A stretch of 21,936 nucleotides of DNA, from positions 1 through 21,936 of the IMG/VR virus record IMGVR_UViG_3300030406_003065, one strand, 5' to 3'. The notes under the pieces are model-generated. The model saw only the letters and a list, made by a program, of their open reading frames with translations, had not been told where the DNA came from and did no database searches. The stretch is from a virus. Positions 1 to 21,936 of this stretch are shown here, piece after piece. Both the position numbers and the translations under genes were made by a program. Numbering within the stretch: position 1 is the first letter of the stretch; the number at the start of each line of letters is the position of its first letter.

Positions 1-858
1 GAAGCACACGATACAGCTTGTAATTTACCTGACTGGAACGAAGATGAACATGTAGATTGTATGTTATGGGCAGGTAAAAGAACTTACAAATGGCTTATGG
101 ATAGAAAACGAGCTGCAGAAACTACAGGTGGTAGGGCAATATACGAAATGGTATATCTTAATGTAGCTATGCCAGATGGTTTATCATTATTTGACAGAGT
201 AGAGATAGAAGAGTGTCGTGACCAAAAGCGTGACATAGGACACATACCACATGGTACAAGACTTATTGCAGGATTAGACCCTGCATCTACAGGTTATCAA
301 GCAGCATTTTTGTGGGCATACGAACCTATAGAAAATAAATTACACATGGTAGATATGAATAACAATCTAGGTGGTGGTATTCCACAAGCATTAGAGATAA
401 TGAAGGAATGGTGGATGAAGTACAACTTATCACACTGGGTTATAGAAGAAAATGGTTTTCAGAAAGCAATAAGACAAGACAGAAGTATTAGAGAGTTTGC
501 ATCAGGTCATGGTATATTTTTAGAGGGTCACGAAACATATAAGAATAAATTTGACCCTATGTATGGTGTTACAGCTATGCGACCAATGTTTCAAGAACAA
601 AATATTTCTTTGCCATATCTTAGCTTTGAAGCACAAGAGAAGGTAAACTTATATACAAGTCAGTTAGTGTATTTTAGTTCTGCAAAGAACAAAAGCAAAA
701 GCGTAGGTACAAAGACTGACATAGTTATGGCTAGTTGGTTTCCAATGAGAGCCATAAGAAGAATGCAGAAGGAACGCTTTGCAGAGTTAGGATATGAATA
801 TAATCCTAGCTTTGAAGGGTACGAACCTAGTAGTATGGATTTAGATAATTGGAGTTAA
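1..858 (+). CDS. terL: Terminase large subunit, C-terminal nuclease domain (5' partial)
   Basis: The reading frame is open from base 1, so the gene starts upstream and its ATPase domain lies outside the window. TerL cuts concatemeric phage DNA and pumps it through the portal. The visible part fits the RNase H-like nuclease domain: a hydrophobic strand ending in 'GLDPASTG' (first metal-binding Asp at 277-279), a second strand 'HWVIEENG' with acidic residues (about 436-459), and a late 'KTDIVMASW' (Asp at 718-720), the usual spacing of the three acidic clusters. The family call rests on these motifs and on the portal gene following directly. The stop TAA is immediately followed by the portal ATG, and the GGAG that serves the portal lies inside this gene. 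The assignment is fairly firm. The packaging type (cos, pac or direct repeats) cannot be told from this fragment. Confidence 0.88.
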   Translation, partial: EAHDTACNLPDWNEDEHVDCMLWAGKRTYKWLMDRKRAAETTGGRAIYEMVYLNVAMPDGLSLFDRVEIEECRDQKRDIGHIPHGTRLIAGLDPASTGYQAAFLWAYEPIENKLHMVDMNNNLGGGIPQALEIMKEWWMKYNLSHWVIEENGFQKAIRQDRSIREFASGHGIFLEGHETYKNKFDPMYGVTAMRPMFQEQNISLPYLSFEAQEKVNLYTSQLVYFSSAKNKSKSVGTKTDIVMASWFPMRAIRRMQKERFAELGYEYNPSFEGYEPSSMDLDNWS

Positions 859-2640
859 ATGCCTTTAGATAGCAAAAAGTTATACGACAAGATAGATTAC
901 CTAAGAGTAATTAATCAAGAACAAATGATTGATAGGTCTAGGATTCGTGACATTATGAATGGTGGTGAAGCTGCAGTAAAAGCACTTCTTGGCAATTCAG
1001 TTAATGTAGAGTATCACGAATTACCTGCACCTAATTTATTTTTAACAGCACTAGAAAGATTTGCACAAAAACTAGGTAGAAGTCCTGATTTAAAAGTTGA
1101 TATTATAAATGAAAAAGATAGCGAAAGAGCTAGAAAAAAATCAGAAAAAATTGAACGTATTGTCACATCATATGACAAATTTCAAAAATTACATATGCAG
1201 TTACCACAAGCTGCAAGATGGTTACCTGGTTATGGTTTTATAGCATGGACTATAGGACACAAAAGAGATAAAGATGGTAATGCGTATCCTTATGCTGAAC
1301 TACAAGACCCATTTAGTTGTTACCCTGGAATATTTGGTAACGACCAACAACCACAAGAATTAGCAATAATTCGTAGAGTGCCACATACAATATTGGCAGA
1401 ACAATATCCTGAAGCTAAACAGTACATATTCGCACAAAAAGAAAATGATGATGGTTTTCAAAATCCATATTCTGCATTACTAGATAGTACAGATAGAGCA
1501 GGTGGTTGGGCTAACTCTACAGGGCATGGAAAAGTTGTAGTTGAGTATAGAGATATAGAAGGAACTTATGTATTTTTACCTGAAAACAAAAAAATAATAG
1601 ATTACATGCCTAATGTATTACAGTCAGGACCTTGCTTTGTTGTAGCTAAAAGATATGCGTTTGACCAAATGCAATCACAGTTTCAACACATTACAGGTCT
1701 TATGGCAAATATGGCAAAAATTAACATACTTGGAACTATTGCTATGGAAGATGCAGTGTTTACAGAAACAAATATTGTTGGAGAAATAGAATCAGGAAAA
1801 TATAGAAAAGGCAGATTTGCTGTTAACTATTTAACACCTGGTTCGCAAGTGTCTAAGCCAGTTAATAATTTACCATATCAATTATTTCAACAAGTAGATA
1901 GATTAGAACGACACCTAAGACTTGGTGCTGCATATCCAGTATCTGATGATGGACAATCTCCTAATTCTTTTGTTACTGGTAGAGGACTAGAAGAACTAGG
2001 ACAGTCTGCATCTTTGCATGTAAGAGAATATCAAACAGTTCTTAAAGAAGCATTACAAGAGATAGATGCTAAAAGATTAGAATATGATGAAGTTATGTTT
2101 CCTAATAAACGTAAACCTATTGCAGGTAGGCACAAAGGAACATCTTACAAAGAATCTTATACACCATCATCTGACATATCAGAAGTTTATGAAACAAGAA
2201 GAGTATATGGTGTAATGGCAGGGTTTGATGAGCCACAAAAAATTATTACAGGGTTGCAATTAAAACAACAAGGCATCATTGATACACAGACATTACAAGA
2301 AAACATGGATGGATTAGATAACATTACTAAAATACAACAACGTATAAATGCAGAAAAAGCAGAAACAGTTTTGTTTGAATCTCTTATGTCACAAGCTGCA
2401 CAAGGTAATCCTAAAGCAACTATTGCTGCTATAGAGATAAGAAAAAATCCACAAAAAATGTCAGAGATATTAGATAAATTTTATACAGCAGAAGGTGAAG
2501 AACCTAGTGCAGAAGAATTAGCTTTACTTGGTCAAGGTGGACCACAAATACCTGCAGGTCCAGGTGGTGGATTGCCAGGTATAGAACAAGTATTAGGTGC
2601 TTTAGGTCAAGGACCACCACAAGGAGAACCAGTTGCCTGA
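859..2640 (+). CDS. Portal protein
   Basis: A 593-residue protein directly after terL, the normal place for the dodecameric portal that forms the DNA entry and exit vertex of the head. The length is typical for phage portals. Residues about 115-150 ('PQAARWLPGYGFIAWTIG', then 'QDPFSCYPG') fit the central part of portal proteins, and the following stretch is alpha/beta with a long helical region after residue 270. The C-terminal 50 residues are low-complexity, rich in Gly, Pro and Gln, which is common in portal C-termini. ATG 859 follows the terL stop without a gap (TAAATG), with GGAG at 851-854. The gene ends in an 8-nt overlap with the next reading frame. The call relies on context, size and general character rather than a diagnostic motif. 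Confidence 0.8.
   Translation: MPLDSKKLYDKIDYLRVINQEQMIDRSRIRDIMNGGEAAVKALLGNSVNVEYHELPAPNLFLTALERFAQKLGRSPDLKVDIINEKDSERARKKSEKIERIVTSYDKFQKLHMQLPQAARWLPGYGFIAWTIGHKRDKDGNAYPYAELQDPFSCYPGIFGNDQQPQELAIIRRVPHTILAEQYPEAKQYIFAQKENDDGFQNPYSALLDSTDRAGGWANSTGHGKVVVEYRDIEGTYVFLPENKKIIDYMPNVLQSGPCFVVAKRYAFDQMQSQFQHITGLMANMAKINILGTIAMEDAVFTETNIVGEIESGKYRKGRFAVNYLTPGSQVSKPVNNLPYQLFQQVDRLERHLRLGAAYPVSDDGQSPNSFVTGRGLEELGQSASLHVREYQTVLKEALQEIDAKRLEYDEVMFPNKRKPIAGRHKGTSYKESYTPSSDISEVYETRRVYGVMAGFDEPQKIITGLQLKQQGIIDTQTLQENMDGLDNITKIQQRINAEKAETVLFESLMSQAAQGNPKATIAAIEIRKNPQKMSEILDKFYTAEGEEPSAEELALLGQGGPQIPAGPGGGLPGIEQVLGALGQGPPQGEPVA
2621..2626 (+). promoter_or_regulatory. Ribosome binding site deciding a TTG start
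   Basis: AAGGAG lies inside the portal gene six bases before TTG 2633. It supports TTG as start of the small downstream gene. The only nearby ATG in that frame (2663) has a T-run upstream and no purine-rich site. Confidence 0.6.
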
Positions 2641-2839
2641 TATAAATAAAACTTTTTTTGACATGATTAATCAAGAAGATTGGTCTGAAGATGTATTTAC
2701 AGGTACAGAAGATGAAACAAGTATTGTTATGAAAAACTTTATTACAATACCTACACCACATCCACATTTTTTTATAAATCTCACATTTGAGTACGAATAT
2801 AATCCAAAGTTAGGAGATGATTTATTTGGCGAAATATAA
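2633..2839 (+). CDS. Small acidic hypothetical protein (TTG start)
   Basis: A 68-residue acidic protein that I do not recognise. TTG 2633 is preceded at good spacing by AAGGAG and overlaps the portal stop by exactly 8 nt (TTGCCTGA), an overlap length that recurs at other junctions in this operon. An ATG at 2663 is an alternative start but lacks a ribosome binding site. The codon choices (AAA, GAA, GAT, TTA, ACA) match the neighbours. The chain has an acidic N-terminal half, a 'TPHPHFF' stretch around residues 42-48 and an aromatic, acidic end; no signal peptide or membrane segment is seen. If it is not translated, about 185 bases here would be the only sizeable gap in an otherwise gapless operon, which argues that it is real. 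Confidence 0.6.
   Translation: MPDINKTFFDMINQEDWSEDVFTGTEDETSIVMKNFITIPTPHPHFFINLTFEYEYNPKLGDDLFGEI
2811..2816 (+). promoter_or_regulatory. Ribosome binding site deciding a TTG start
   Basis: TAGGAG ends directly against ATG 2817 (zero spacing, unusable) but is nine bases from the in-frame TTG 2826. The TTG start gives an N-terminus reading Met-Ala-Lys-Tyr, followed by a basic stretch. Confidence 0.5.
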
Positions 2840-3230
2840 CAGAGGTAGAAAAAGTAAGGAGTTACAAGAAGCAACTGACCTAACACAAGGTGGTGCATTT
2901 GCTGACATTGTTGCACCTCCAAGAAAAGAAGGCGACCCAACAGGACAAACAACAATGTTAGAAGAACAAGCAGGTGCTATAAGTCCTATGGGTGAAACAG
3001 GACCACAAACTCCTATGACACCACCTATGATAAATACTCCTATGAATATAGCAGCACCTACTAATAAACCTAATGAACCTATTACATCAGGAATACCATT
3101 TGGTGCAGGAGATAATGGACCAACACAAATAATGACAGATACAGTTGCAAATATATTTAAAGCAGCAAAAAGAATTTTACCTGACCCAATATGGGATGAG
3201 TTATTAGAAGCTGATACAGATATAGGATAG
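2826..3230 (+). CDS. Pro/Thr/Met-rich hypothetical virion-module protein
   Basis: About 134 residues from TTG 2826 (137 from ATG 2817). I prefer TTG because TAGGAG at 2811-2816 is correctly spaced only for it; it overlaps the previous gene by 14 nt. The N-terminus is strongly basic ('KYNRGRKSK'). The middle (residues about 45-85) is low-complexity, rich in Pro, Thr, Met and Asn and probably disordered, and the last 30 residues look like a short amphipathic helix ('IFKAAKRILPDPIWDELLE'). I do not recognise a family. Its position between the portal and a giant virion gene suggests a small virion or assembly protein, possibly binding a partner through its C-terminal helix; this is inference. The next gene starts two bases after its stop codon's last base. 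Confidence 0.68.
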   Translation: MAKYNRGRKSKELQEATDLTQGGAFADIVAPPRKEGDPTGQTTMLEEQAGAISPMGETGPQTPMTPPMINTPMNIAAPTNKPNEPITSGIPFGAGDNGPTQIMTDTVANIFKAAKRILPDPIWDELLEADTDIG

Positions 3231-3231
3231 T

Positions 3232-6200
3232 ATGGATTGGAAATCTACTTTTTTTCTTCCTTCGTACTATAAACAAGGTTTAGCTGATGGAACTGATGCG
3301 AATCTTAACGAAATAGACCGATTTGAAAGAGCTATAAGTCCTGACCTAGCAGGAGTTATGAGGGATATAGCTTACACATATCCATCTTTAGACAAAAGAT
3401 TAATAGCTTATTTACCATTAATGGGATTAAAAGCAGATGATGAAGATGTTTTAAAAATTGCACAAACACAACAACGTGCTATGGAAAAAAAACAACGTGT
3501 TATAACTGATGTAGGTTTTGGTAAAAAAACATCACAATTAGGTTTTTTAGCTATGGACAGTGCTTTTCAAAATATATCAAGAAATTTTAAATCAACTGTT
3601 GTAGCTGCACAAGAAACAGATACATCAGTTGGAGGTGCAGTAGTAAGTAACACACTAGCAGGTTTATTACCAGGAGAAGCATGGACAGAAGCTACACGTA
3701 AAGCAACATTAGGTAAAGAATTTAATGAAAAATATAATGAAGCTAAAGAAGCTTATGGTGATAGTGAATTTAGAAGAGCAGTAAATGAAGCAGGTGGTGT
3801 AACAAATGCTTTAACAGGCAGAGGTAAACCTCTTAACTTAGGTGTGGGTATTTTACCTAATTCAATACCATTAGAAGAAACTGATGTGTATATTAAACAG
3901 ATTAAATTAGGTAAGACACCTACACAAGCATACGAAATAGCTGCTGATGTATATGGTAGACCTATTACAGAAGAGTATGAAAGAGATGAATATCAATATA
4001 CTTATAAAACAGATACAGGAGAAAGAATACCAATATCTCCTGGAAGAATAGTCGCTGCACAATTTTCACAAGAAGGAGAAATATCTTATGCTTTAACATC
4101 AACTATTATTGATGGGGCATTTAGATTAGGTGCAGACCCTATAAACTTATTACTTGGTTATGGTGGTGCAATTAAAACTGCAGGTAGAAAAATTGTATCA
4201 CAAGCAGAAGTAGCACAATATGTAGATGATGCTTCTTTTATTACAAGAGCATTAAGGACTGTAAAACCAACTAAAAAAGGTGCTGAAGCAAGAAAAATGA
4301 TGTTTGGTAAAAGTGCAGAGCAAATATTAAATTCTAAATGGGGAGATAAATTTATAGAAGCATTGACTGTAAATGAATCTGTGGCACGTTTAAGAGATAT
4401 ACCAACTTTTAGACAAGTAGATACAAGAGTTTTAAATTTATTAGCAAAAATAAAAAATAAAGAATCTATGAAAGAAGTAGTAACTTCTTTGTTAAAACAT
4501 GGAGATTTGTCTGATTTAATGATTGCACCTTATTCAGGTACATTTGTCGGACAAGAAATTGCAGCAGCAGCTATGCAAACACCAATAACTAAATTGCCAA
4601 TGCGACAATCTGTAGTAGCAGAACTATCAAATCAATTAGCTTATAAATTTGCAGGTGAAGCAGTAGATATTGCACCTCTTAGAAATAGCATAGGTGCTTT
4701 GTTGGGTATGGCTAAAAATGACCCATTTAAAGGTGTTGTTGGTATTGGTGGTGCTTTAAAAAATGCTATACCACAAAAAGTAAAAAGATTATTTGATTTA
4801 GCACCAAGTAGATTTGCTTCTATTAATTATATTGCAGAAACCATAGAAAACATAGATGGTGTGTTAATTGCTTTAGGTGATGACCAAGCAGCTAGAGATG
4901 TCATAATGGCAGAATTATTAACTGCTAAAAATCAAGATGATATTGTTAAGGTAGTACAAAAAGTAAATGTTAAAATTAAAGAAAAAGTAATAAAAGATAA
5001 TCCTGATTTACAAGATGATGAAGAGTTATTAACAGAAATTACAGATTTTATTAATAATGAATTAGTAGAGAAAAGAAAATATTTATATGATGCTGATGGA
5101 TTACCTTTATCTTTTCCTGGAACTAAATATAAATTACGACCACAACGTGTAGATGAAGAAGGAAATATACTTGAAGCTATAGAAGTAGCAGTACCTACTG
5201 CATTTTCAATAGGTCAATTTGCAGATAACTTTGTTCCATTAACTGACTATCAACAACTTGCAAAGTCACTTGCATCATTTAGAAGAATGGTTGGTCCTAG
5301 TAGAAGTGAATTGAGAAAATTTTTAAAATCATCAACTTGGGGAAATAAAGATTATACTTTACCTGAAAAAATATTACAACAAGCAAAAATACCTACACGT
5401 GGTTTAAAAACTAATTATAGAACTGGAAAAGTAGATTTAGCACCTAGTAACTTTTTAGAGTATATGTATTCCGATTTTATTATGCAACGTGCATTAAAAC
5501 CATTGTGGATGCTTAGACCTGCATTAGCATTAAGAGTTCCACCTGAAGAAGCAGTACGTATTGCTATGTATGGTGGTCCTAGTGTATTTAGACATCCTTT
5601 GTTATTAGCTTCTTTAAAAGCAAGACCATTTCCTAATGTTGTAAATAAATTAAATTTAGATAAATCAGACCCAGTTTTTGTACAGCTTCTTGATAATACA
5701 GGTGAGCAATTTTATGCTATGCGAATTAATGCTGATGAAGTAGATAACGTAGCAGAATTAATTGGAAACGTAGATATGAAAAAATCATTAGAAAATTTAA
5801 ATTACGACCAAATACAACAAATAATGAAAGTGTTAAGACTTAACACTAATTCATCAGGACAAGTAGGTGATTCGTTTTTACAGTATGCTATTGATGGTAA
5901 TAATGCCACAGACTTTGCATTTGATGAAATAGTTGGTGAATTAAAACAACTTAAAACACAAAAAGTTAACCCAGTTGGTAACCTTGGTAATTCACTAGAG
6001 TTACGTGACACAGTAAGACCTTTTGCTAATTTATCAAGAATGAAAAATAATATATCTGTAATACCTAATAAAAAATATAAACAAATAGTTGAGGTAGAAA
6101 CTAATGCAGAAATAGCACAAGCAATACAAAACTATGCAAATAATCCATCTATACAAATGCAACTTAAAAAATTAAATCATGGATTGTCTATACAAGTAAA

Positions 6201-9200
6201 AGATAATTCTGTAATACTAGATGTTACTGTACAACTAAACAGTGGTAGCACATTAGCAGAAGCAGAAACAGCATTAAGAAATGCTTTGAGTATTGCTATT
6301 AAATCACATCAACCAAAAATATATATAAGACAAGAAGCATTTAGTTTATTACCTGATAGTAACCCTATAAAAAACAGTGCTAGGTATATAGAGGATGGTG
6401 ATGTATTTGAAATATCAGTATATGGTCAACCTGACCCTCGTATAGATAATGTAGATTTTGATTCACCAGTAATTAAAGAAGTAATGGAATATTTGTTTGA
6501 TAGTAATTTTCAAACAGCTAAAAAAATTATAAATAAAAAAACAGGTTACGCACAAGCTGCACCTTCAGGAACATTTTTTAATACTACACCACAATATATA
6601 AACACAATGTCAGAACAATCATTACTTAAAGTATTAAAACCACAAGCAAGAGGTAGAAATGCAAGAGAAGATTTTTTTATAAACGTACCAAAATATGAAG
6701 GCACTGGTAAGGTTATTAATCCTAAATGGTGGAGAGGTTGGATTCACGAAATGCTTAATAGAGCAAGTGACCCATTGTTTGTAGTTGTTGCTAGAGATGG
6801 TGTAGATAAAGCTATGGAATTTTTTAGCAATACTCCACAAGGTAAAAAATATATTGAAAATTTAATAAGCCGAAGTGATGACCCTGAAATAAGAGCAGTG
6901 TTACAAAATAAAGACCAGTTATTAAAATATTTAAAAACTGCTGAATGGGAAATAGGAAGATTACAAGGAAATGAATCATCAAAAATTTTGCGTGAAGGTG
7001 TAGAAATTTCAGAACAAGAAGCAAGAAAAATGTTACGAGATGGTAATGGTGATTTTGTTTTTCCTGATTATGAAGTAGATTTAAATATTGGTGCTGCAAA
7101 AGTAAAAGAATTTATTGCTAATGGTGGATTTGTTGATGGTGAAGATTGGTTAGAGTTATCACAAAAACATGCAGTATTAGCATCTAAAACAGAAAAATAT
7201 TTTGGAAAGTTTTATGACAAAATTAAAAAAATATTTGATGAAGAAATAAGGTCTATGGATTTAGGACCAAGAACTGTAGCTTACAATAATAATGAAAATT
7301 TTACAAAAGCAGGGCTATTAAAAGAAAGAGCAATAGAAAAATTTGATGAAAGGTTAGGAGATTTATATTCTTTGTTTCTTGCTAAACCTTCTGATTATTT
7401 AAATCGTGACCCAATGTTTAGATGGACATTCTATACATTAGCTGAAGATTTAATGCCTTTTATGACAAATGATGTTAAAAAAGAATTTATGGTAGGTGCA
7501 AAACCTTGGATAGAAGGAAGCGATTTATATACAACATTATTAGCAAAAGCAAAACAAACACCAACTGAAAATTCTATTACAACATTAGAACAAGCAGAAA
7601 CATTACTTAAATACAAAGCTATGGATGAAGTAAGAAATTTGTTATATGCTAGTTCAGAACGACACGTGTTGTCTGATGTTATGGCAACATATATTCCATT
7701 TCCTGAAATATGGCAAGAGGTATTAAAAACATGGGGTAAACTTACAATAGAAAATCCACAAAAATTTAATAGAACTCGTATAGCAATAGACAGAGGAAAA
7801 GAATCTAGTCCATGGGATACAGACAATGCATTTTTTACATCAGACCCAGTAACAGGAGAATTGTTATTTAACTATGTTGATGTAATGAATGTTATGACAT
7901 TTGGCATGACAGCTATACCAGGTGCATTTGGATTTTCACCATTACAACAAGGTTTGCTTGGTGAAAATTTAGAAGATGAAGGTGTAAGAGTAAAACCATA
8001 TGGCTTTTTAGAAGGATTAAACTTAATATCTGCAAATGGGTTTTCTCCTGGCTTTGGACCTATTGTTACGTTCCCATTTAAAATATTAACAAAAATTGCA
8101 ACAGTACCTAAAGTTATAAGCAATTTTGTATTAGGTAATTTTGAATCACCTGGTGGTAAAATAAATCTTATTGATGAATTACCATCTTGGGCAAAAGGAG
8201 TTTTTAAAGCAATACCATTTACACAAGAAGCAACAGAAGAAATAAATGCTTCATATTCAAGAACAGTTATGGATATATTTACTATGTATTACTATGCAGG
8301 TAAATGGTCACCTGAAGATGAGGAATCTATAAAAATTGCTATGCAAGAAGCAGAAAAAGCTGCTGCTTTACACTGGATGGTAAGAGGTACTGCACAAGCT
8401 GCATTTCCTACACCAATACAACCTAGATATGAACTTAAAGACAAAAATGGTGCTTGGTGGACAATACAAGTATTAAGCCAAAAATATCAACAAATGTTAG
8501 AAGCTAATCAATTTGATTACACTATTACAACGTTGCAGTTTGAAGAAAAATTTGGAATAAATCCAGTACCATTAAGACAATCTGCTAGTGCTAAACAAGG
8601 TAGATTTCCTGTTAAAAAAGAATCATATGCGTTTTGGCAAAAAATAGAAAATAAAAAGTTGTTAGAAAGAAAACCATATACAGCTATTTTTCTAAAACCT
8701 GACAAAGTAGATGATGAATTTTCATTACCTGCATTTATGGAAGGTGCTTCAACATTAACTCCAAGTCAATATTCACGTGCTGTGCAACAATCATTATTAC
8801 AATTTGAATTAGAAAAATTTAAAGAAGATTTAAAAAATGATAAATCATTATCTCCAAGGGCAAGAGATGAACGATTTTCTGCACGTAAAACAAAATTACA
8901 AGAAGAATATGGTGTTATTGCTTATGGTAGTTTAGGAGATGCTGTGCAAATGGCAGATAAGTACCAAGTTATATTAGAGTTTAGGGATTGGAAAAACGAA
9001 CCTTTGTTAGCTAATACACCTGAAATGGAACCATTAACAAAGTTTTTAAAAGAATATGATAAAGCAATAGAGGTAGTTTTAAATGGTGGAGAAATATTTT
9101 TACCTGGTTCAGATAGAGCAGTTGTAATAGCTAAAGGTGGTATTAAGGGTAAAGTTGCTGCTACACTTGAAGGAAAAACTGGTAACATTGATGTAATACG

Positions 9201-12186: not shown

Positions 12187-12386
12187 TGGAAGAATTTAAA
12201 AAGTTTTTAAAAGAATATTATTTTAAAGAATATCCTGATAGAAAATTTATTCTAGGTCCTAATAATGAATTAGATGGGGAAAAATTAGGAATAGACACTA
12301 GCAAAGTAGATGTTAATAAATTATCTTATGAACAACTTGTGGGATTATTGAACTCGTATTTTTTCTATGAGGATGTATATGAATAA
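12186..12386 (+). CDS. Small hypothetical protein between two large virion genes
   Basis: 66 residues starting at a TAATG junction with the transglycosylase gene, after a GGTGGG stretch at 12178-12183. The next gene overlaps its end by 8 nt. The N-terminus is Lys/Phe/Tyr-rich and amphipathic ('EEFKKFLKEYYFKEYPDRKF'), the middle acidic, and the C-terminus aromatic ('LNSYFFYEDVYE'). I do not recognise it. It has no membrane segment. It may be an accessory or chaperone for one of its large neighbours; only its position suggests this. Confidence 0.65.
   Translation: MEEFKKFLKEYYFKEYPDRKFILGPNNELDGEKLGIDTSKVDVNKLSYEQLVGLLNSYFFYEDVYE
12369..12372 (+). promoter_or_regulatory. Ribosome binding site deciding the start of the second giant gene
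   Basis: GAGG is six bases before ATG 12379. Two upstream in-frame ATGs (12367, 12373) overlap or abut this site and cannot use it, so 12379 is preferred. Confidence 0.6.
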
Positions 12387-15300
12387 ATTAATAAACGATA
12401 TAGCTAATTATTTAATTTCTATAAATGTTAGACCAAATCAAGTAAGCCAAACTGCAAATCAATTATTTAAAATAATAAGACAAAGTGAAAGTGGAGTTGT
12501 TGCTAAAACTAATTTAGCAAAATGGATTTTAGAAAATTTAGAAACAGTATTAGATGAATCAAGAGTAGCATATTCAACAGTAATGAAAGATAAATTACTT
12601 AATATGGTAAACAATACACCTGATTCTGTTTACGAAAGTGCTAAGACTATAAATAAATTTCAATTTAAAGATTTTTTAAATCAAAATTCAACAGCAATAG
12701 ACAACATAGTTAAAATTATGCAAACTGAAGTTGCAAATTATTTAAATGAATTAGGTTTAAGTATCACTAGTGGACAAAAAGGTGCGTTAACAAGAAAAAT
12801 AAAAAATAGAATAAAAGCTTCTGAATTTAGAACTTTAGATGAGGCACGTGATGCAGAGTTTATTTTTTCTAATATAGCTGCAAATCTACCAGACATAGTT
12901 ATAAGAGAAGTTAATCAATATGTTAATAATGGTTATGGTTTTGATAACTACAACGAAGCTATTGAAAATTTTGAAAATAGATTTACAGAAGAAACTTTTT
13001 CTGAATTTAAAACAGATTTAGATAATTTTATTAACGAAAAAGCAGCACAATTTGCTGAATCTACAAATGTAGATAACGTTAAAGCAAAATATATAGACAA
13101 TGAATTAAATAATAAATTAAAAACAATTAGACAAAAAGTGCTAGATTTATATAACCAAGCAAGTCCATATGAACAAGGGCAAATTAATTTATCAGTATTG
13201 TTAGATAATATACGTATACAAAGTTCAGAGTTGTATGAAGATAAAATAATTTTTTATTACAACAAAGGTGTAACAAGTGCATCAGCAAATACAGGTGTTG
13301 ATATAGGTATGGGTTCAGGTGTAATAGATAAACTTCTTAATAATTTAATAGAAACAGTAAAAGAAAACAATTCAGTATTTCAAATAGAAATAGAAAAAAA
13401 TGTAAAAACAAAATTAGCAGAAGGTGGAAGGCATTCTAATGAAATACCTGAAAAAGGTGTTTTCCGAGTAGAATCTCAAAATAAATTAGGAAATATTGAT
13501 GTTACAAAAATATATTATCCTGAAGAAAATAGTGCAGTATTAAATAAATTTACAGAATGGTTTGATAAAAGATTAGAACTATTAAGTCAAGATATAGAAC
13601 AAATAAATCGTTTAGGAACTGCAGTATTGCCTGATGATTTTAATACAAGTAACAATAAATTAGTAAATCTTATAAATGAAGATGGTCCTTTATTTCCTAA
13701 CAATAGTACAGCAATAAAAAGTTACAATTCTATTATTTTACAACAATTAAGAATGCATCCTGAATTGCAATATATTATAGATACAGGTATTGACCATTCG
13801 TTAATTAACCAAGATAACCCAAATTCACCTTTAAGGTGGGATATTGTTGCTTCTAATCAAGAAAGTGGAAATTTAAATACAATAAAAGAAATACATACAC
13901 AGGGGTATGGTCAATGGTATCAAGATATAATAAATATTAATGAAGATAACATAACAGAAACATTAGAAAAACATCCTCGTTGGAAAAAAGTACAACAATT
14001 CTTAAAAGATAATTATAAAAATCAAACTTTAATTAATAATAAATTCGCAATATTAGATGATGCACCTAGTTGGGTTTATGGTTTAGTACATACAGGACCT
14101 GATGGAAAAAAAAGAATTATAAGTTTAGCTTTGACAGATGGAACAGATAATAGATTTGGTAACGATTTAAGTTATAGTGTTGAAGAAAAAACATCAAATA
14201 TAACAACTAATTTTATATCATGGAAACCTGTATCGGAAAGTGGTCAACAAATTGTTTATGGTTACTATCCAAATGTTTTACAAAATATTACTACTACTAA
14301 TAGGGAAGGTAAAGAAATAGTTGAATCAATTAACAAAATGCTTAAAAGAGGCACAACAAGACTTGCACAGTATTGGTTTGGTGGAATGTTAGCAGTAGCA
14401 GATAAAGATGGAGTTGTGTGTTATTGTGACCCAATTAATGGACAAGTATTTGATATTTATCAAAGAGGTGGATTTATAGCTGAAAATCTTAATAATTTAA
14501 CTATAGGGGAAATTCCTGTAAATAGAACAGACTTAAGTACATATATGACACGTTATCCTGGACCTTATATAAAATTTAACGTTGATGACATTTTAGATGA
14601 TTCAAACGCATGGAGTGTTACTCCATTAAATGGTGAATTTAAAATTAAGAAAATTAGAATAGAAACAAGTGTATGGGGTGAACCTGATGATTTAGAAGTA
14701 ACTGCACAACGAAAAAAATTTACTTCTACCCAAATACAACAATCACCAAGACACATGGCAATATTAGGACTAATGGAAGCTGATTTAAAAAAACGATACC
14801 CAAATTTAGATATTCAAGATGCAACTTTTAAAACTGCACAAGCAAAGTTAACACATACAATATTAAGACTAGGTGGAATTGATTATCGTGGAATGGATAT
14901 AAATTACATAAATGATGCTGTGGATAATAATTTTGTAAAAGATTTAAAATACATATGGACTAGTAATTCAGACATATCAAACAAATTTTTTAATGAAATT
15001 TTAGAAACATTAGACCATAAAATATTAGGAGAAAAAATATTTAATTCATCTTTGTTAAAAGATATTACAGGAATAAATACTAATGAAATAACTGATTATT
15101 TAAAAAAATCAGTAGGTATATCATTTAATACAGATAATCAAATAGATACAGGAGAAATAAAAAAAGGAAATCCTGATTCACTTATTATTCCCAACAATGC
15201 AAATAATGTAGAAATAATATTAGATAGTTTAACTGAAAATCAAAGACAAGAGTATGGAATATATACACCTAAAGAAGTACTTAATAGTGTAAATGAAGGA

Positions 15301-17739
15301 CTAGAAGCTAATGAACAAGTTACAGAGTTAACACAAGAATTTTGGAAAAATTGGAGTAATGGAACATTAGCACAAACTAATTTACCACATTCTACTAACA
15401 CTTTAGGTTATTTTGATAATAGTGTTTCTTCAAGTGCAGTTTCAACAGCTAACTTTTTAGAAACAAATAATTTTCGTAATATGTATTCAAATTCACCTGA
15501 TAATATAATACAAATAATTCGTAGTGCTGTAATAAATAGGGAAGTATCACCTAGTGATGTTGTAGACAAAGGTGGTTTAGTAGATGCAAATGATTGGACT
15601 GGTGTAGATGAACTAGTAACATCTGAACGTTCACAAATTAGTCCTACTGGTAGAGCAAGTGATAGACAAATTAAATTGCAAAATACACATATGTTTGAAC
15701 GATTTTATACAGGTGGTAATAGTTTTATAGAACGTTTATCACCAAGAAAACAACATAGATTTACACACATATTAAACGAATTACATAAAGCAGAAAATAC
15801 TTTATTACTTACTGCTGACATAGAATACGTTGGTAGTTACACTGCTTCTGTTGGTACACCAATAGATTATTTTGAAATTGGAACAGTTAAACAAATAACA
15901 AGAGAAGGAAGAACTGAATTAGTTAAAAATTACATGACAATAGCAGTAGATTTTACCAATATGGACACTACAGGAACAACTGATACTGTTGCAGCAAAAA
16001 TATTAAGTGTACAACAAGCACATAAAGATATGGGAAGTAGTGGTGTAGTAGAATTAGCAGATAATAACACATTTAAAGCATTTGTTATGATGTTAAATGA
16101 TTCAGGATTAACAACAATAGGTTATCGTAACCCTACAGTAAATACAATAGAAACACAAATTCATCCTGTAGGAAGAGTTGGTAAAGCTATGGGTGTTATA
16201 ACACGTTATGATGATGGTAGTTTAGGAATAAATTTTGATGAAACTACAACAAATACTAATTTAAAAAATACTGTTGATGATATAGTAGATTCATCACCTA
16301 ATAACGTTCTAATGAAAGATACTATAGAACAATTATTACAAGATAGTCAAAAGAAAAAAACAACAACTACAGATATATCACCACAACCTTTATATACAAA
16401 CGTAAACTTTGATGCATATTTAAATAGAGCAGATGTGTACAATCCAGCAATACAAGAATTGTTTGACTTAATAGATAATAAAACAACAGGTGCAGTAGCA
16501 ATAAGTTTAAGACTTAGAGGCACTGATTTAACAGATTCTGAATTAGGTACTATAGTAAAAAGACATGGGCAACAACCTACATTTAATAAAGTAGGACCAC
16601 ATTTAGATTCACCATCATTTGACACTGATTTAATTGTTTTAAATAAAAATAATAATATTGAGGTATTAGGAGATTTAGATAATCCTAATGGTGCAGGTGC
16701 AATATCTAATGGTAATGCTGTAATATATGTAGATAATATTGAAATAGCTGCACCTAGTAGTGATTTTGATAATCGTGTTATACAAAATTCTTTAGAAAAA
16801 ATAAAGAAAAAAATTAATGCAAATAGTGATGAATTTGACAATACAAATATTAATAGTCAACTAGAAGGTGTTACACGAAGTCAAAATAGTGTAGTTACCA
16901 CAACTAATGGAATAATTCCATTAATTGGAGATGATACAGATATAGAAAAAGTACAAGCAGGTTACACTTTAGGTGACAGTATTGGATATGATGGAGGAAC
17001 AGAAAGTGTTGGTGTTGTTTTTAATCCTAATAGACCTCCAGTCGGAGTAAATCCTGATAAAAAAACTTTAAGACAATTAGGTAAAGCATTTGCAAAAACT
17101 AAAACAGGTAAAACTTTAGGGTACGCATGGAAAACTGTTGACATTGGTGAAACATTAATATCAAAAGGTTTTCAAAAAGCTGCTGCTGCTGCTGCTGCAG
17201 CAGGTGCTGTTTCATTAGGAACAGGTGTAGCTGCATTAGCAACTGTATGGGCAGCATATGAAGTAGGAAACTTAATAGTACAAGCTATGAGAGGTATTCC
17301 TGATTTATATAATGTTTACGAAAAAAGAAATGAAATATTAGCTAATGGTGAATATTGGGAAAAACAACTTGTTGAAGAAACATTTTGGAAAGATTATGGT
17401 AGTGAACTATTAGAAATTTTAGAAGATGCATCAAAATATTCTCCTGCTGAAATATTAGGAGATAAAATATGGAGTATAGCTTTAGATAGTTTATTTAGAC
17501 AATCGCAAGGAGAATCGTTTCCTGAAATATATGAAGAAGATAATAGTGATTTAGATATGAAAAACGATATATATTATTCATCCTTGCCTAGTAATGTTAA
17601 ATTAGAGCAAATGCAAAACAGTATTGATTATGATAAAGTATTAACAGGGTACTATAACAATAGACCTGAAGCTAATGTGATTATGAATAGAACGTATGAA
17701 TTAGCAAATAATGTTTATAATAGGGATGGTAATGTCTGA
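12379..17739 (+). CDS. Second giant virion protein, 1786 residues, with C-terminal membrane-like segment
   Basis: ATG 12379 gives 1786 residues and an 8-nt overlap (ATGAATAA) with the upstream stop; a longer reading from 12367 adds four residues. The first third is helical and charged, coiled-coil-like. The middle (about residues 560-800) is beta-rich with many Gly, Asn and Tyr. Around 1147-1260 there is a stretch with a faint resemblance to a DnaQ-type exonuclease ('LLTADIEYVG', later 'IGYRNPTVNTIE'), lacking the usual second-motif Phe-Asp, so I do not call it. Residues 1601-1608 are eight Ala followed by Gly, Ala, Val, Leu and Trp residues to about 1637, a plausible membrane segment, preceded by a Lys-rich basic region. 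An ejection-type virion protein that inserts into or crosses the cell membrane fits size, context and this segment, but is inference. The protein family is unknown to me. Confidence 0.74.
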   Translation: MNKLINDIANYLISINVRPNQVSQTANQLFKIIRQSESGVVAKTNLAKWILENLETVLDESRVAYSTVMKDKLLNMVNNTPDSVYESAKTINKFQFKDFLNQNSTAIDNIVKIMQTEVANYLNELGLSITSGQKGALTRKIKNRIKASEFRTLDEARDAEFIFSNIAANLPDIVIREVNQYVNNGYGFDNYNEAIENFENRFTEETFSEFKTDLDNFINEKAAQFAESTNVDNVKAKYIDNELNNKLKTIRQKVLDLYNQASPYEQGQINLSVLLDNIRIQSSELYEDKIIFYYNKGVTSASANTGVDIGMGSGVIDKLLNNLIETVKENNSVFQIEIEKNVKTKLAEGGRHSNEIPEKGVFRVESQNKLGNIDVTKIYYPEENSAVLNKFTEWFDKRLELLSQDIEQINRLGTAVLPDDFNTSNNKLVNLINEDGPLFPNNSTAIKSYNSIILQQLRMHPELQYIIDTGIDHSLINQDNPNSPLRWDIVASNQESGNLNTIKEIHTQGYGQWYQDIININEDNITETLEKHPRWKKVQQFLKDNYKNQTLINNKFAILDDAPSWVYGLVHTGPDGKKRIISLALTDGTDNRFGNDLSYSVEEKTSNITTNFISWKPVSESGQQIVYGYYPNVLQNITTTNREGKEIVESINKMLKRGTTRLAQYWFGGMLAVADKDGVVCYCDPINGQVFDIYQRGGFIAENLNNLTIGEIPVNRTDLSTYMTRYPGPYIKFNVDDILDDSNAWSVTPLNGEFKIKKIRIETSVWGEPDDLEVTAQRKKFTSTQIQQSPRHMAILGLMEADLKKRYPNLDIQDATFKTAQAKLTHTILRLGGIDYRGMDINYINDAVDNNFVKDLKYIWTSNSDISNKFFNEILETLDHKILGEKIFNSSLLKDITGINTNEITDYLKKSVGISFNTDNQIDTGEIKKGNPDSLIIPNNANNVEIILDSLTENQRQEYGIYTPKEVLNSVNEGLEANEQVTELTQEFWKNWSNGTLAQTNLPHSTNTLGYFDNSVSSSAVSTANFLETNNFRNMYSNSPDNIIQIIRSAVINREVSPSDVVDKGGLVDANDWTGVDELVTSERSQISPTGRASDRQIKLQNTHMFERFYTGGNSFIERLSPRKQHRFTHILNELHKAENTLLLTADIEYVGSYTASVGTPIDYFEIGTVKQITREGRTELVKNYMTIAVDFTNMDTTGTTDTVAAKILSVQQAHKDMGSSGVVELADNNTFKAFVMMLNDSGLTTIGYRNPTVNTIETQIHPVGRVGKAMGVITRYDDGSLGINFDETTTNTNLKNTVDDIVDSSPNNVLMKDTIEQLLQDSQKKKTTTTDISPQPLYTNVNFDAYLNRADVYNPAIQELFDLIDNKTTGAVAISLRLRGTDLTDSELGTIVKRHGQQPTFNKVGPHLDSPSFDTDLIVLNKNNNIEVLGDLDNPNGAGAISNGNAVIYVDNIEIAAPSSDFDNRVIQNSLEKIKKKINANSDEFDNTNINSQLEGVTRSQNSVVTTTNGIIPLIGDDTDIEKVQAGYTLGDSIGYDGGTESVGVVFNPNRPPVGVNPDKKTLRQLGKAFAKTKTGKTLGYAWKTVDIGETLISKGFQKAAAAAAAAGAVSLGTGVAALATVWAAYEVGNLIVQAMRGIPDLYNVYEKRNEILANGEYWEKQLVEETFWKDYGSELLEILEDASKYSPAEILGDKIWSIALDSLFRQSQGESFPEIYEEDNSDLDMKNDIYYSSLPSNVKLEQMQNSIDYDKVLTGYYNNRPEANVIMNRTYELANNVYNRDGNV
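17179..17202 (+). repeat. Alanine codon run (six GCT plus two GCA)
   Basis: A short trinucleotide repeat coding eight Ala at residues 1601-1608 of the second giant protein, at the N-terminal edge of its hydrophobic segment. Such runs can vary in copy number by slippage. Confidence 0.85.
17722..17725 (+). promoter_or_regulatory. Ribosome binding site deciding a start codon
   Basis: AGGG is six bases before ATG 17732. Earlier in-frame ATGs at 17711 and 17726 lack a correctly spaced site. Confidence 0.5.
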
Positions 17740-18955
17740 ATATTTTATAGAAGGTAGTTTATTACAAGAACCTGATGAGTTGATAAGTATTGACAATAAT
17801 ACTTATGCAGTATATTTATACACTACAACAAGTGGTTCAGTTATGCCTTTAGTGGTACGTGTAGATTTACCAAAAAGTTTTAAAGAAGGTGCAATAGATA
17901 AAGCTAATCCATATACAGAAGAAACGTTTGCTGATAAATATGGTTATGCTTTTTTCTCTATGTTTAATTTATCTGATTTAAAATTAATTGACCCTGATGA
18001 TAGAGATGTATCAGATGTTGATTGGTTGTTACAAAATATAGAAAATGATTTAGAAACAAAAGCTAAAAATTTTGGTAAAAGATGGTATTTAGATGATGAA
18101 GTACAACAGTTATTTGCTTATGGTGCAATAACTGGAGAAGATATATCACCATTCCTTGAGCAATTAACTTGGTTTAAGGATAGTACACCTGAACAAAGAA
18201 ACTTTATTGAACTTTTATATACTAAACCTGATAAAGCAGCAAAGTTAGTTAAAGACAATTATACAGCATTAAAAGTGCAAATTGCACAAATGGGTATATC
18301 AGGTGAGGGTGTAGATGATTTAGTTAGAGAATTAGCAGGAGATGTAGCACAAGGAAATATAACTACTGCTGAAGCAGCTTTAACATTATCTTATTTAATT
18401 GACCCATATAAATTATCTATGGCAGGTGGTAAAGATGTTATGAATCAAGATTACGTAGGTTTTATAGGCAAAATAAATCAAACTCATAGTGGAGTAGCTA
18501 ATGCAAAAGATTTAGTTACACAATACTTAGGTGTAGATACATCTATGGCATTTGAAAAAAGTGGTGTTATTGAAAAATACGCAGCTATGTTAAGAGCAGA
18601 TGCTGCATTAGGAGAAGGTGTGACAACTAATTTAGATATTATTAAAAATCAATTACAGTCTGCACACGATAAAATGTTTCCTGGTTATGCAGGTAGTCAA
18701 CACAATTTATGGTCTGCACCTTTGTATAGAACATTTCAAACTATAACTGGTAAAGCAGGATTATCTAATGAAGATAAGAAAAAAGTAGACATTATATCAC
18801 AAAAAGTTGGTGGAGATATGACACTGTTTGCAGCAGAAATAAGAAAACAATATGAAGATGACCCAACATATCAAGACACAGTGCTTGGTGCTATGACAGG
18901 AGTGTTTAAGCAAGATGTATCAGGTGTATTTACAGGACAAAGTTTGGTAGGTTAA
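17732..18955 (+). CDS. Virion-module protein of 407 residues, function unknown
   Basis: ATG 17732 gives an 8-nt overlap (ATGTCTGA) with the giant gene and follows AGGG; a longer reading from 17711 is possible (414 residues) but unsupported. The first 100 residues look beta-containing ('EGSLLQEPDELISIDNNTYA'). The rest is alpha-helical and acidic with an 'ALTLSYLIDPYKLSMAGGK' segment in the middle. A Gly/His/Trp-containing patch ('MFPGYAGSQHNLWSAPLY') lies around residues 310-328, where a loop or interface is likely. No catalytic motif, signal peptide or membrane segment is visible. It sits between a giant virion gene and a peptidoglycan-binding protein, all co-oriented and nearly gapless, so it is probably another structural or ejection component. 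I do not recognise the family. Confidence 0.7.
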   Translation: MSEYFIEGSLLQEPDELISIDNNTYAVYLYTTTSGSVMPLVVRVDLPKSFKEGAIDKANPYTEETFADKYGYAFFSMFNLSDLKLIDPDDRDVSDVDWLLQNIENDLETKAKNFGKRWYLDDEVQQLFAYGAITGEDISPFLEQLTWFKDSTPEQRNFIELLYTKPDKAAKLVKDNYTALKVQIAQMGISGEGVDDLVRELAGDVAQGNITTAEAALTLSYLIDPYKLSMAGGKDVMNQDYVGFIGKINQTHSGVANAKDLVTQYLGVDTSMAFEKSGVIEKYAAMLRADAALGEGVTTNLDIIKNQLQSAHDKMFPGYAGSQHNLWSAPLYRTFQTITGKAGLSNEDKKKVDIISQKVGGDMTLFAAEIRKQYEDDPTYQDTVLGAMTGVFKQDVSGVFTGQSLVG

Positions 18956-18957
18956 TT

Positions 18958-20235
18958 ATGGCTATGACAACAGAAGAGATAAAAGAGTTACAAAGAGAAT
19001 TAGGTGTTACACCTGATGGAATTATTGGACCTATAACTAGAGCAGCAGCAAAAGCAGCACAAGAAGCATCTCCATTTGAAGAAACAAAATATGATGATGT
19101 AGTTAACACTACAGGACTTGTTAGAGGTACAGATGACACTGTAGATGAAACTGTAGATGAAACTATAGATGACACTGTAGATGAAACTATAGATGAAACT
19201 GAAGATGAAACTGTAAGTAGTGATTACCCTAAAATTTTATACAACGAATTTGGTGTACCAGTTTCTGTAGATGATGCTGAAGAGGAAGAAAAATTTAGAG
19301 GAATAGGTTTTACTTTTGATGAAAAACCTGAAGTTAAAGGTGGTGGTATAAATACAGATTTATTAGGTCAATTACTTGGAAGTTACGCAGAATCAGCACA
19401 AGTAGCAGAAATTGCACAAACAGGACCATCAACATACGAACAAGCTAAAGGTTTATATCCTTATTTAGATGATAGATTAATTAGGTTATTTCTAAATAAA
19501 TATGCAGAATCAGGAAATGAACGTTTAGCTTTAGCAGAAATGAGAGCAGACCCAATTATGGATACTATATATCCTGGAATAAAAAGAACAGATGGAACTC
19601 TTAGAATGACAGAACAAGAATATGTTGCTGCTGTTGATAATATGAAAGCCACTGTACGAACATATAATTTAAACCCTAATGAGTTTCAAGATGATATTGT
19701 TAATGCAATAAGTGGTGATGTATCACCTTTAGAGTTTAGACAGAGAATGGAAGCAGGATACGAAAATGTTGTTAATAACATTCCACAAGTAAAACAAGCA
19801 TACCTAGATAACTTTGGTGTTGACTTACCAAATGAATCTATATTTGCTATGTTTGTTTCTCCTAACGTTGCTACAAAAATATTAGAAGGACAAATTAGAG
19901 CATCACAAATTATTGGTGAAGCAGAGGCAGCAGGATTTGGTAGTATAACTGGACAAGTAGGTACATCATTAGCACAACAAGGACTAACACAAGAAGGTGC
20001 TAGAAAAGGTTATGGACAAGCAGCTTTAACTCTTAAAGGGATACAAGGTGCTGCTGCTAGACAAGGAAGAGAAAATATTACAGCTACAGAATATGTACAA
20101 GCAACACAACTTGGTGCAGCACAAGAATTACAACAATTACAAAATGTATTACAACAAGTAGAAACTGAAAGTTCTGCAATACTTGGTGCAGTACGTACAC
20201 AACAAGGTGCTGTTACAGGACTAGAAGAAACATAA
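18958..20235 (+). CDS. Virion protein with N-terminal peptidoglycan-binding domain and acidic repeat linker
   Basis: 425 residues, starting two bases after the previous stop. Residues about 5-35 carry the PG_binding_1 core: 'IKELQRELGVTPDGIIGPIT' and an Ala-rich helix, matching the lQ..Lg...DG..G..T signature of three-helix domains that bind peptidoglycan. Residues 59-86 are an acidic repeat (D-D/E-T-V/I/E), presumably a flexible linker. Residues about 191-325 form a separate helical domain with 'YPGIKRTDGTLRMTEQEY', 'NAISGDVSPLEFRQRME' and 'FGVDLPNESIFAMFVSP', a pattern I associate with virion proteins of marine and actinobacterial phages (memory, not a search). The C-terminal 50 residues are Gln-rich and helical. 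The likely role is to anchor a virion or ejected complex at the cell wall, together with the transglycosylase encoded upstream. It is the last gene before the internal promoter. Confidence 0.78.
   Translation: MAMTTEEIKELQRELGVTPDGIIGPITRAAAKAAQEASPFEETKYDDVVNTTGLVRGTDDTVDETVDETIDDTVDETIDETEDETVSSDYPKILYNEFGVPVSVDDAEEEEKFRGIGFTFDEKPEVKGGGINTDLLGQLLGSYAESAQVAEIAQTGPSTYEQAKGLYPYLDDRLIRLFLNKYAESGNERLALAEMRADPIMDTIYPGIKRTDGTLRMTEQEYVAAVDNMKATVRTYNLNPNEFQDDIVNAISGDVSPLEFRQRMEAGYENVVNNIPQVKQAYLDNFGVDLPNESIFAMFVSPNVATKILEGQIRASQIIGEAEAAGFGSITGQVGTSLAQQGLTQEGARKGYGQAALTLKGIQGAAARQGRENITATEYVQATQLGAAQELQQLQNVLQQVETESSAILGAVRTQQGAVTGLEET
19132..19215 (+). repeat. Tandem 12-bp repeat, seven units, coding an acidic Asp/Glu-Thr linker
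   Basis: Seven in-frame copies of a 12-bp unit (consensus GATGAAACTGTA) with only synonymous or conservative differences between units (GAC for GAA in two, ATA or GAA for GTA in three). Together they code [D-(D/E)-T-(V/I/E)]x7, residues 59-86 of the peptidoglycan-binding protein. Unit number probably varies between related phages. Confidence 0.92.
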
Positions 20236-20368: not shown

Positions 20369-20398
20369 AATAAAAACAGTAGTGTAAGACTAAAAAGC

Positions 20399-20419
20399 AG
20401 TGGTTACTTATACACCACT
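20399..20419 (+). promoter_or_regulatory. Leader hairpin C just upstream of the scaffold start
   Basis: AGTGGT (20399-20404) pairs with ACCACT (20414-20419) around a nine-base loop. It ends 21 bases before ATG 20441 and is not followed by a T run, so a role in translation or mRNA stability of the scaffold message is more likely than termination. Confidence 0.4.
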
Positions 20420-20440
20420 TGTAAAAATATCGTATAAAGA

Positions 20441-20905
20441 ATGGACAATAGAATAATGACAGAAGAACTAAACAACTCTGACACAGGCGAAAAGAACTGG
20501 AAAGAGATGAGAGAAAAACTTAATCTCTACGAAGCGAAAATCGCAGAATACGAAGGTAAAGAAAGACAAGAAGTTTTTAACAAAGCAGGTCTTGACACTA
20601 CTAAAGGTGTTGGAAAAGCAGTTGAGATGATGTACGAAGGTGATATGACTGTTGAAGGAATACAGCAATATGCATCAGAAGAATTTGGGGTTGAGTTTGG
20701 GAATCAAGACAGATTACAAGATACTGTACAAGCTACAGAACAAAGTCAGGATAGACTAAACAACATACAGCAAAATTCAGTTGTAGATTTATACAACACA
20801 GATGTAATATCGCAAGTTCGTGAGATAGAAAAAACTGGAAATACAAGACAATCAATAGCTGCCAAGTTATCTGTTATAGAGGAAGCGAAGAAAAACTCTA
20901 AATAG
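20441..20905 (+). CDS. Capsid scaffolding protein (putative)
   Basis: 154 residues directly before the major capsid gene, the standard place of the scaffold that guides procapsid assembly and is then removed. It is acidic, hydrophilic and helical. Residues about 19-48 ('NWKEMREKLNLYEAKIAEYE' onward) look coiled-coil. Next comes 'FNKAGLDTTKGVGKAVEMMY' (46-65), then 'EGDMTVEGIQQYASEEFGVE'. This 'AGLD.[ST]KG...YEGD.T.E.I..YA' layout is one I recall from scaffold-like proteins of actinobacterial phages. The C-terminus is Lys-rich, as expected for a capsid-binding tail. ATG 20441 has only a weak AAAGA upstream; ATG 20456 is an in-frame alternative with no better site. It has no protease motif, and no separate head protease is seen in the window. 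Confidence 0.72.
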   Translation: MDNRIMTEELNNSDTGEKNWKEMREKLNLYEAKIAEYEGKERQEVFNKAGLDTTKGVGKAVEMMYEGDMTVEGIQQYASEEFGVEFGNQDRLQDTVQATEQSQDRLNNIQQNSVVDLYNTDVISQVREIEKTGNTRQSIAAKLSVIEEAKKNSK

Positions 20906-20946
20906 ATTTTCTAAACTTCTTCAAACAATTTAGACAATTAACTTAT

Positions 20947-20952
20947 AGGAGA
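20947..20952 (+). promoter_or_regulatory. Strong ribosome binding site of the major capsid gene
   Basis: AGGAGA eight bases before ATG 20961, followed by an A-rich spacer. It is among the best Shine-Dalgarno matches in the window, fitting a highly expressed gene. Confidence 0.8.
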
Positions 20953-20960
20953 AGTAAAAA

Positions 20961-21936
20961 ATGGCAAATATTTCGTTAACTAACAATACGATTTATGCAC
21001 AAAACATTAATAACTTTACTGGTGAGTTGTTTAAAGTTGGTGGTCAAAGAACACCTTTATTGTCATCAGTTGGTGGTTTGAATGGTGGTAAAGTATTAAA
21101 CTCTACATTTTGGCAAGTCCAAGTAGAAGATAATGCAACCATTTCTTCAGAACCAACTAAAGGACAAGAAGGTAGCACACCTACAGAATATCTTGGAAGA
21201 GATAGAGCTGCATATACTTATGTAACACAAATCTTCCATAAAGGTGTACAAATGACCTACACAGCTTTAGCTTCAACAGGTAACCAAAATCCTTTTGACT
21301 TGTCAGCTAACATTGTTAACACATCTGATGGAGATGGAACAACAACAGCAGCAGATAAATTAGGATTATTTGGTGGTAACCCAGTAAATGATGAATTTGC
21401 ATTACAGCTTGAAAAAGCTATGGAAAAAGTAGCAAGAGAAGTTGAGTGGTTCGCATTCAATGGTTCTTTCTCTGATGGTGCTAATGTCACCCCAGGGTCA
21501 GGAACAAGAGAAATGTATGGTCTTGATGTATGGATTTCATTAAACAAGAACGCTGACAACTCTGCAGCAGTAAACCCACTTGGTGGTAACTGCTACTACA
21601 ACGACACATCAGGTGATGGAACTGGTTCTGCACAAGTAATCAGTTTCGCAACTATTTCAGGTGCGTTAAAGAGGATGTATGACAACCATGCACCAATGAA
21701 ACAACCTGTACTTTGTGTTAGCCCACAACAATTACTAGACCTTAACAATGAACTTGTTAAAGGAACAGTTGATATAGCAGGTGCAATCATTCCTAGAGAT
21801 AGAAATGTTGCAGGTGTTGACATTGATACAATCATTACACCATTCGGTTCAATCGGACTTATGGTTATTGACCCTGACATCATGCCAACAGGAACTGCTT
21901 TCATCTTAGACCTAGCTTACATACAACCAGTATTCA
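20961..21936 (+). CDS. Major capsid protein, HK97 fold (3' partial)
   Basis: The frame opens at ATG 20961 and runs off the window after 325 codons without a stop. The N-terminus reads MANISLTNNTIYAQNINNFT. A Gly/Ser/Thr-rich region is followed by a long helix around residues 142-167 ('FALQLEKAMEKVAREVEWFA', then 'FNG'), the spine-helix region typical of phage capsid subunits, then 'GTREMYGLDVWI' and a C-terminal 'DPDIMPTGTAFILDLAYIQPV'. The pattern suggests the SU10/DUF5309-type branch of HK97-fold capsid proteins; this is from memory of the family. The start has a strong AGGAGA site, and codon use shifts towards C-ending codons (about 16 AAC to 11 AAT, 8 TTC to 6 TTT), unlike the giant genes, which fits very high expression. 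Few residues should be missing at the 3' end. Confidence 0.85.
   Translation, partial: MANISLTNNTIYAQNINNFTGELFKVGGQRTPLLSSVGGLNGGKVLNSTFWQVQVEDNATISSEPTKGQEGSTPTEYLGRDRAAYTYVTQIFHKGVQMTYTALASTGNQNPFDLSANIVNTSDGDGTTTAADKLGLFGGNPVNDEFALQLEKAMEKVAREVEWFAFNGSFSDGANVTPGSGTREMYGLDVWISLNKNADNSAAVNPLGGNCYYNDTSGDGTGSAQVISFATISGALKRMYDNHAPMKQPVLCVSPQQLLDLNNELVKGTVDIAGAIIPRDRNVAGVDIDTIITPFGSIGLMVIDPDIMPTGTAFILDLAYIQPVF

Follow-up and report, generated by a model that had tools for sequence, protein, structure and literature searches.

Absence of GATC from a family of uncultured marine phages, and of ACGT from those members that carry a putative nuclease gene

The virus record IMGVR_UViG_3300030406_003065 of IMG/VR is a 21,936-base phage fragment (G000), and the window analyzed here is the entire record, the sequence ending at the window edge. 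The window contains no GATC, and most of its relatives are likewise GATC-free. Among close relatives a second tetranucleotide, ACGT, is either near normal or exactly 0 in number, and its absence follows a phage gene, c24, which encodes a putative solitary nuclease. We consider a joint explanation probable (about 0.7), in which restriction by the host purged GATC from these genomes and the phage nuclease c24 underlies the purge of ACGT.

The number of GATC sites expected in the window was 60.6 from base composition and 46.5 from an order-2 Markov model based on trinucleotides. When synonymous codons were permuted within the window proteins, with protein sequence and codon usage held constant, 2,000 draws gave 46.5 ± 4.5 sites (range, 27-64), far from the observed count of zero. 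The original prediction, that GATC is absent and that codon choice avoids it, was thus confirmed on both points. The avoidance is apparent in individual codons: Asp preceding C was encoded by GAC in all 39 cases and never by GAT, whereas Asp preceding A, G, or T was encoded by GAT 370 times and by GAC 59 times. After a codon ending in G, Ile was never ATC (ATA or ATT in 26 cases), and none of the eight Ser codons following a codon ending in GA was TCN. Ten positions had been cited as examples, of which five were exact (277, 553, 4135, 13792, and 3316-3321) and four were displaced by 1-2 bases, with GAC starting at 17990, 21870, 4882, and 5806 instead of 17989, 21868, 4880, and 5807; the GACCCN placed at 6781 does not exist.

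GATC is not the only word avoided in the window. TCGA was absent (16 ± 3.4 expected from the codon shuffle), as was GACG/CGTC (20 expected), and GAC was used for none of the 156 Asp codons preceding G. GCGC and GGCC were likewise absent, with small expectations at the 31.5% guanine plus cytosine (GC) content of the window, and GCTGG, GTCTC, and others were also avoided. ACGT occurred at a normal level, with 45 sites observed and 47.5 expected. The low GC content and the scarcity of CpG-containing words could suggest that the base composition or the codon bias of an AT-rich marine phage alone accounts for the loss of GATC; however, the codon shuffle still expected 46.5 sites, the pelagiphage HTVC010P, a control of similar GC content, contained 131 of 139 expected GATC sites, and close relatives of the same composition contained up to 37 of 47. 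These counts refute a compositional origin, to which we assign virtually no probability. Because HTVC010P retains its sites, the absence of GATC across the family is not a general trait of AT-rich marine phages.

The terminase gene (c1), which encodes approximately 640 amino acids at full length in relatives, was used to collect related sequences and to build a tree; a search of IMG/VR yielded 598 confirmed matches. No named phage was near the window at the DNA level, and the terminase matches among named phages were mostly to Streptomyces phages, with approximately 26-32% identity. The longest related contigs examined were 40-44 kilobases (kb), and the same gene recurred approximately 43.8 kb apart in one contig of a metagenome-assembled genome (MAG), which suggests a genome length of about 43.8 kb. 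Among the 46 contigs compared, 42 held 5% or less of the expected GATC sites, and most held exactly 0, with 3,536 sites expected in total; this GATC-poor set includes relatives with approximately 55% terminase identity. The count beyond the window extended the absence to contigs of up to 44 kb, with the exception of one clade that bears GATC.

The GATC-bearing relatives (G015, G016, G041, L064, and L070) formed a single nested clade in the terminase tree, with roughly half to 90% of the expected sites. The same clade was also released for CCAGC and GAGAC. When its GATC sites were compared with the corresponding positions in GATC-free relatives, the encoded amino acid was unchanged in 26 of 39 comparisons in c2, the conserved gene after the terminase gene, and in 18 of 18 in c1. 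The codon shuffle, the family-wide absence, and the mostly synonymous reappearance in one clade together support selection against GATC. The mostly synonymous return of GATC, together with the release of CCAGC and GAGAC, looks like release from host restriction.

GATC is the recognition site of DpnII, MboI, and Sau3AI. A GATC-cutting enzyme in infected cells would eliminate phage genomes that retain a site, and synonymous codon choices would become fixed through the loss of GATC-carrying genomes. The enzyme would most likely belong to a Type II restriction-modification system of the host, resembling DpnII/MboI or possibly DpnI; DpnII-type and methyl-directed DpnI-type restriction are not separable from these data. 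A comparison of gene presence and absence revealed no gene, nuclease genes included, that follows the GATC state, and a host GATC-specific system, as had been proposed from the window, is therefore the best remaining cause and most likely the correct one, although ACGT tracks a phage gene instead. The interpretation first drawn from the window, in which the signal would also tie the phage to hosts with such an enzyme, is supported in part.

The alternative that the phages carry a GATC-specific nuclease of their own, lost in the GATC-bearing clade, appears improbable. It would account for the all-or-nothing pattern that GATC shares with ACGT, and for the mosaic contig G391, in which all 13 GATC sites lie in the first 7.5 kb (bases 1-7,500), within a late module akin to that of GATC-bearing phages, beside a GATC-free structural module that matches GATC-free relatives. 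However, no gene was present in all GATC-free genomes and absent from GATC-bearing ones except d19, and a single nuclease leaves the release of CCAGC and GAGAC in the same clade unexplained. The d19 gene, the lone fit in the first set of contigs, was rejected as a GATC nuclease since its product resembles a small structural protein and the gene occurs in the GATC-bearing G391. A phage-encoded GATC methyltransferase was also set aside provisionally, PF02086 (D12) being absent from 22 related contigs and PF01555 (N6/N4) from 21. A C5-type methyltransferase was found in 2 of 21 related contigs, both c24-free (L300 9694-11268 in G025, 524 amino acids, and G027:7967-8692); the profile searches thus covered the D12, N6/N4, and C5 types.

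Two points weigh on the other side of host restriction. Since GATC in G391 is confined to the late module, tolerance of GATC may go with that module, through either a host change or an anti-restriction gene. The GATC-bearing clade could have been freed by an anti-restriction gene instead of by a change of host, and d112 (approximately 61 amino acids), found in GATC-bearing contigs only, is a candidate from its distribution.

Relatives of the window were binned in an Actinomycetota MAG (approximately 1.1 megabases), in which two distinct contigs of such phages were found, and in a gammaproteobacterial MAG; the two bins conflict, and host assignment by binning was rejected. No close phage relatives were found in the other genomes searched in the order of either MAG, and in the Actinomycetota order the phage terminase was found in no other genome. 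The sampled contigs of the Actinomycetota MAG did not avoid GATC (251 of 312 expected). Within that order, a Dam-family (D12) methyltransferase of full or nearly full length was encoded in 6 of 42 genomes, in some of them next to restriction-like genes; this is compatible with a source of host restriction but does not establish one. The restriction-modification genes in genomes of this order (L360-L366) were varied: Dam-family methyltransferase genes adjoined DUF6996/DUF6997, PDDEXK_11, or GIY-YIG genes, and there was also an enzyme of the MvaI/BcnI type.

Approximately one-tenth of viral genomes have been reported to have lost a Type II site completely or nearly so, and GATC, treated as a restriction site, is under-represented in almost every phage with a host that has the corresponding GATC enzymes (Rusinov et al. 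2018, PMC6286503). The loss described here is of the same kind, but it concerns a whole uncultured family and several words, and for ACGT the correlate is a phage gene, not a known host enzyme. Host restriction of GATC is most likely an ordinary cause acting at an unusual scale; the result carries a familiar effect over to an entire family of marine phages, abundant, widespread, and uncultured, and provides a clue to the identity of their hosts.

The association between ACGT and c24 was nearly complete. All 53 fetched loci with c24 contained no ACGT (510 expected). At the level of distinct contigs, 54 with c24 held 2 sites of 789 expected and 37 without c24 held 1,308 of 1,541; 31 further loci held 1 of 220. 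ACGT was the most differential tetranucleotide between the two groups, and no 5- or 6-mer was comparable. In a tree of the neighboring exonuclease gene c16, the ACGT state changed three times and the presence of c24 changed five times, and the two switched together. For CGTC, TCGA, GGCC, GCGC, CCAGC, GAGAC, and others, gene associations gave no match as clean as that of c24 with ACGT. As ACGT is normal in the window, the window phage should lack c24, the region of which falls outside the record.

The c24 product is a protein of 158 amino acids (e.g., G017:22927-23403, L118:8427-8900, and relatives) in which P63, D64, E77, and K79 were invariant across 20 diverse copies. An AlphaFold model (predicted local distance difference test score, 86.8; predicted template modeling score, 0.79) was compared with known structures using Foldseek, and the nearest folds were the Hjc and RecU resolvases and HincII, with modest scores (best E value, 3.4e-3; template modeling [TM] score, approximately 0.3-0.5). 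The model thus predicts a PD-(D/E)xK nuclease fold with an intact catalytic motif. No match to c24 was found in Pfam, PADLOC, NCBIfam, the PDB sequence profiles, or the named-phage collection. Neither PF01555 (N6/N4) nor PF00145 (C5) methyltransferases were detected in the 15 c24-carrying contigs tested, which are not certified complete, and PF02086 was absent from the c24-carrying contigs among the 22 related contigs searched.

We favor, with reasonable confidence, the view that c24 encodes a solitary, ACGT-specific PD-(D/E)xK nuclease that has no protective methyltransferase, that the phage survives through a genome cleared of ACGT, and that the outcome is a one-way barrier to recombination. 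The cleavage of ACGT and the purpose of this putative phage-encoded enzyme are what we infer from its predicted fold and its distribution. The nuclease would cut ACGT in host DNA or in the DNA of competing relatives, and the c24-carrying phage would be protected solely by having no such sites. ACGT-free modules could then pass out to c24-free phages, while ACGT-bearing modules could not enter c24-carrying ones.

The mosaic genomes suggest such a direction. In G036, which lacks c24, the first 19.7 kb contained no ACGT and matched ACGT-free relatives, including c24-carrying ones, and the last 8 kb contained all 25 sites and matched ACGT-bearing relatives. ACGT-free blocks were also present in G032, G026, G002, and G025, all without c24; the best match of the block was a c24-carrying phage for the first three and another c24-free phage for G025. 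No mosaic of the opposite kind, with an ACGT-rich block inside a c24-carrying genome, was seen, with L298 as a possible exception. The distribution of these blocks indicates that structural or tail modules alone do not set the ACGT state.

The same mosaics bear on the alternative that hosts with an ACGT restriction system cause the avoidance, c24 being a mere clade marker or an inherited recombination resolvase. The position of c24, between c15 (a possible recombination gene, its function not confirmed) and c16 (phrog_284), fits such a resolvase, as does a divergent copy of c24 that weakly matched the phage Holliday junction resolvase family phrog_843 (E = 0.017), and the small number of independent switches is also in favor of this alternative. 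However, recombination requires shared host cells, and c24-carrying and c24-free phages recombine and yet differ in ACGT; structural and tail modules related to those of c24-carrying phages occur in c24-free genomes with ACGT elsewhere (G036, G032, G026, and G002). Furthermore, L310 and L312, which lack c24 within a c24-carrying clade, have normal ACGT. Host-level restriction is a poor explanation of the ACGT difference, and we regard it as unlikely. In the structures that its model matches best and in its proximity to an exonuclease gene, c24 does recall the Hjc and RecU Holliday junction resolvases; however, the TM scores are low, no PDB sequence profile matched, and a junction-specific enzyme is not expected to purge one 4-base word.

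Other observations are at odds with the assignment of ACGT avoidance to c24. The independent switches (3-5) are fewer than a formal sign test needs, which is the main statistical weakness. GGCC and ACGG also differed between the c24-carrying and c24-free groups, less strongly than ACGT. L298 has c24, as a divergent copy, yet contains two ACGT sites, and L393 contains one, 60 bases from the contig end. L302 and L314 lack c24 but contain no ACGT; both are nested in a c24-carrying clade, and a 124-amino-acid nuclease-like gene (phrog_13596) occupies the c24 slot in each (L302 4607-4981 and L314 1415-1789). The genes d29 (late module) and d23/c22 (structural) never co-occurred with c24 and showed a good association with ACGT in the opposite sense. 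Such a pattern could arise if all hosts restricted ACGT and an anti-restriction gene such as d29, missing in c24-carrying phages, shielded the ACGT-normal phages; d29 was found in 28 c24-free contigs and in no c24-carrying contig. However, G037 (27.5 kb), which has neither d29 nor c24, contains 67 of 69 expected ACGT sites, although this contig comes from a remote lineage and is possibly incomplete, and we consider shielding by d29 very improbable.

A nuclease of the kind proposed for c24 resembles two known systems in part. PacI, a solitary restriction enzyme, comes from a genome that has no PacI sites (PMC3488263), and c24 is likewise proposed to be a nuclease that lacks a partner methyltransferase and that the genome tolerates because it is free of the site; PacI is bacterial and rare-cutting, whereas c24 is phage-borne, with a proposed 4-base site, a predicted PD-(D/E)xK fold, and putative cleavage activity. 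In the chloroviruses, CviAI and CviAII represent virus-encoded restriction activity, with GATC and CATG as the sites in PBCV-1 (PMC7248222), and c24 may likewise represent a restriction activity encoded by a virus. Chloroviruses methylate their own sites, whereas the protection of c24-carrying phages would be site absence; a chlorovirus-type restriction-modification system was rejected for c24, no paired methyltransferase being found in the c24-carrying contigs tested. Our search of the open-access literature, which is no proof of absence, turned up no case of a phage whose genome lacks the sites of a solitary restriction enzyme that it encodes. The ACGT result suggests that missing phage words can report enzymes made by phages and not host defenses alone. 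If true, it would offer a route to new phage nucleases and their specificity, predicted from sequence alone, and a simple mechanism by which a single gene curbs the exchange of genes among phages that infect the same cell.

The features of the window are listed in Table 1. The PHROG search gave no match for c2, and the Pfam search gave none for the c5-type protein. A scan for relatives of the large structural protein of G016 returned two contigs, one of which was G016 itself.

Table 1. Genes and sequence features of the 21,936-base window
Feature	Position	Strand	Basis or remark
Terminase large subunit gene, 3' part (c1)	1..858	+	phrog_38 terminase, E = 2e-13
Conserved gene after terminase (c2), presumed portal from position alone	859..2640	+	In nearly all related contigs examined
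Structural-region protein, 2,029 amino acids (c5 type)	3232..9321	+	Cluster c5
Structural-region protein, 1,790 amino acids (c22 type = cluster d23)	12367..17739	+	ACGT normal in 17/17 contigs with this type
GATC-free sequence, whole record	1..21936	.	0 vs 46.5 by Markov model and codon shuffle
Asp-Pro as GAC-CCT, GATC avoided	277..282	+	Sequence reading
Asp-Pro as GAC-CCT	553..558	+	Sequence reading
Asp-Arg as GAC-CGA; GAT-CGA would create both GATC and TCGA	3316..3321	+	Sequence reading
Asp-Pro as GAC-CCT	4135..4140	+	Sequence reading
Asp-His as GAC-CAT	13792..13797	+	Sequence reading
Span of the 45 ACGT sites, first at 1155, last at 20193	1155..20196	.	45 vs 47.5

Further words showed uneven distributions among the relatives. 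CATG was missing from G014:1-21903 (59 expected) and present in the remainder of that contig, and it was absent throughout G013, L056, L058, and others, which makes it another on/off word. The non-palindromic CCAG/CTGG was nearly absent in G006 and G045 (2 vs 111 in G006) and normal in most relatives. In the first 42 kb of the pelagiphage HTVC008M (L417), GATC was low (22 of 109 expected) and TCGA was absent (0 of 34). A small protein that appears SET-domain-like by eye is encoded next to the c16 exonuclease gene at L285 1457-1765, L249 2188-2496, and L280 1794-2081.

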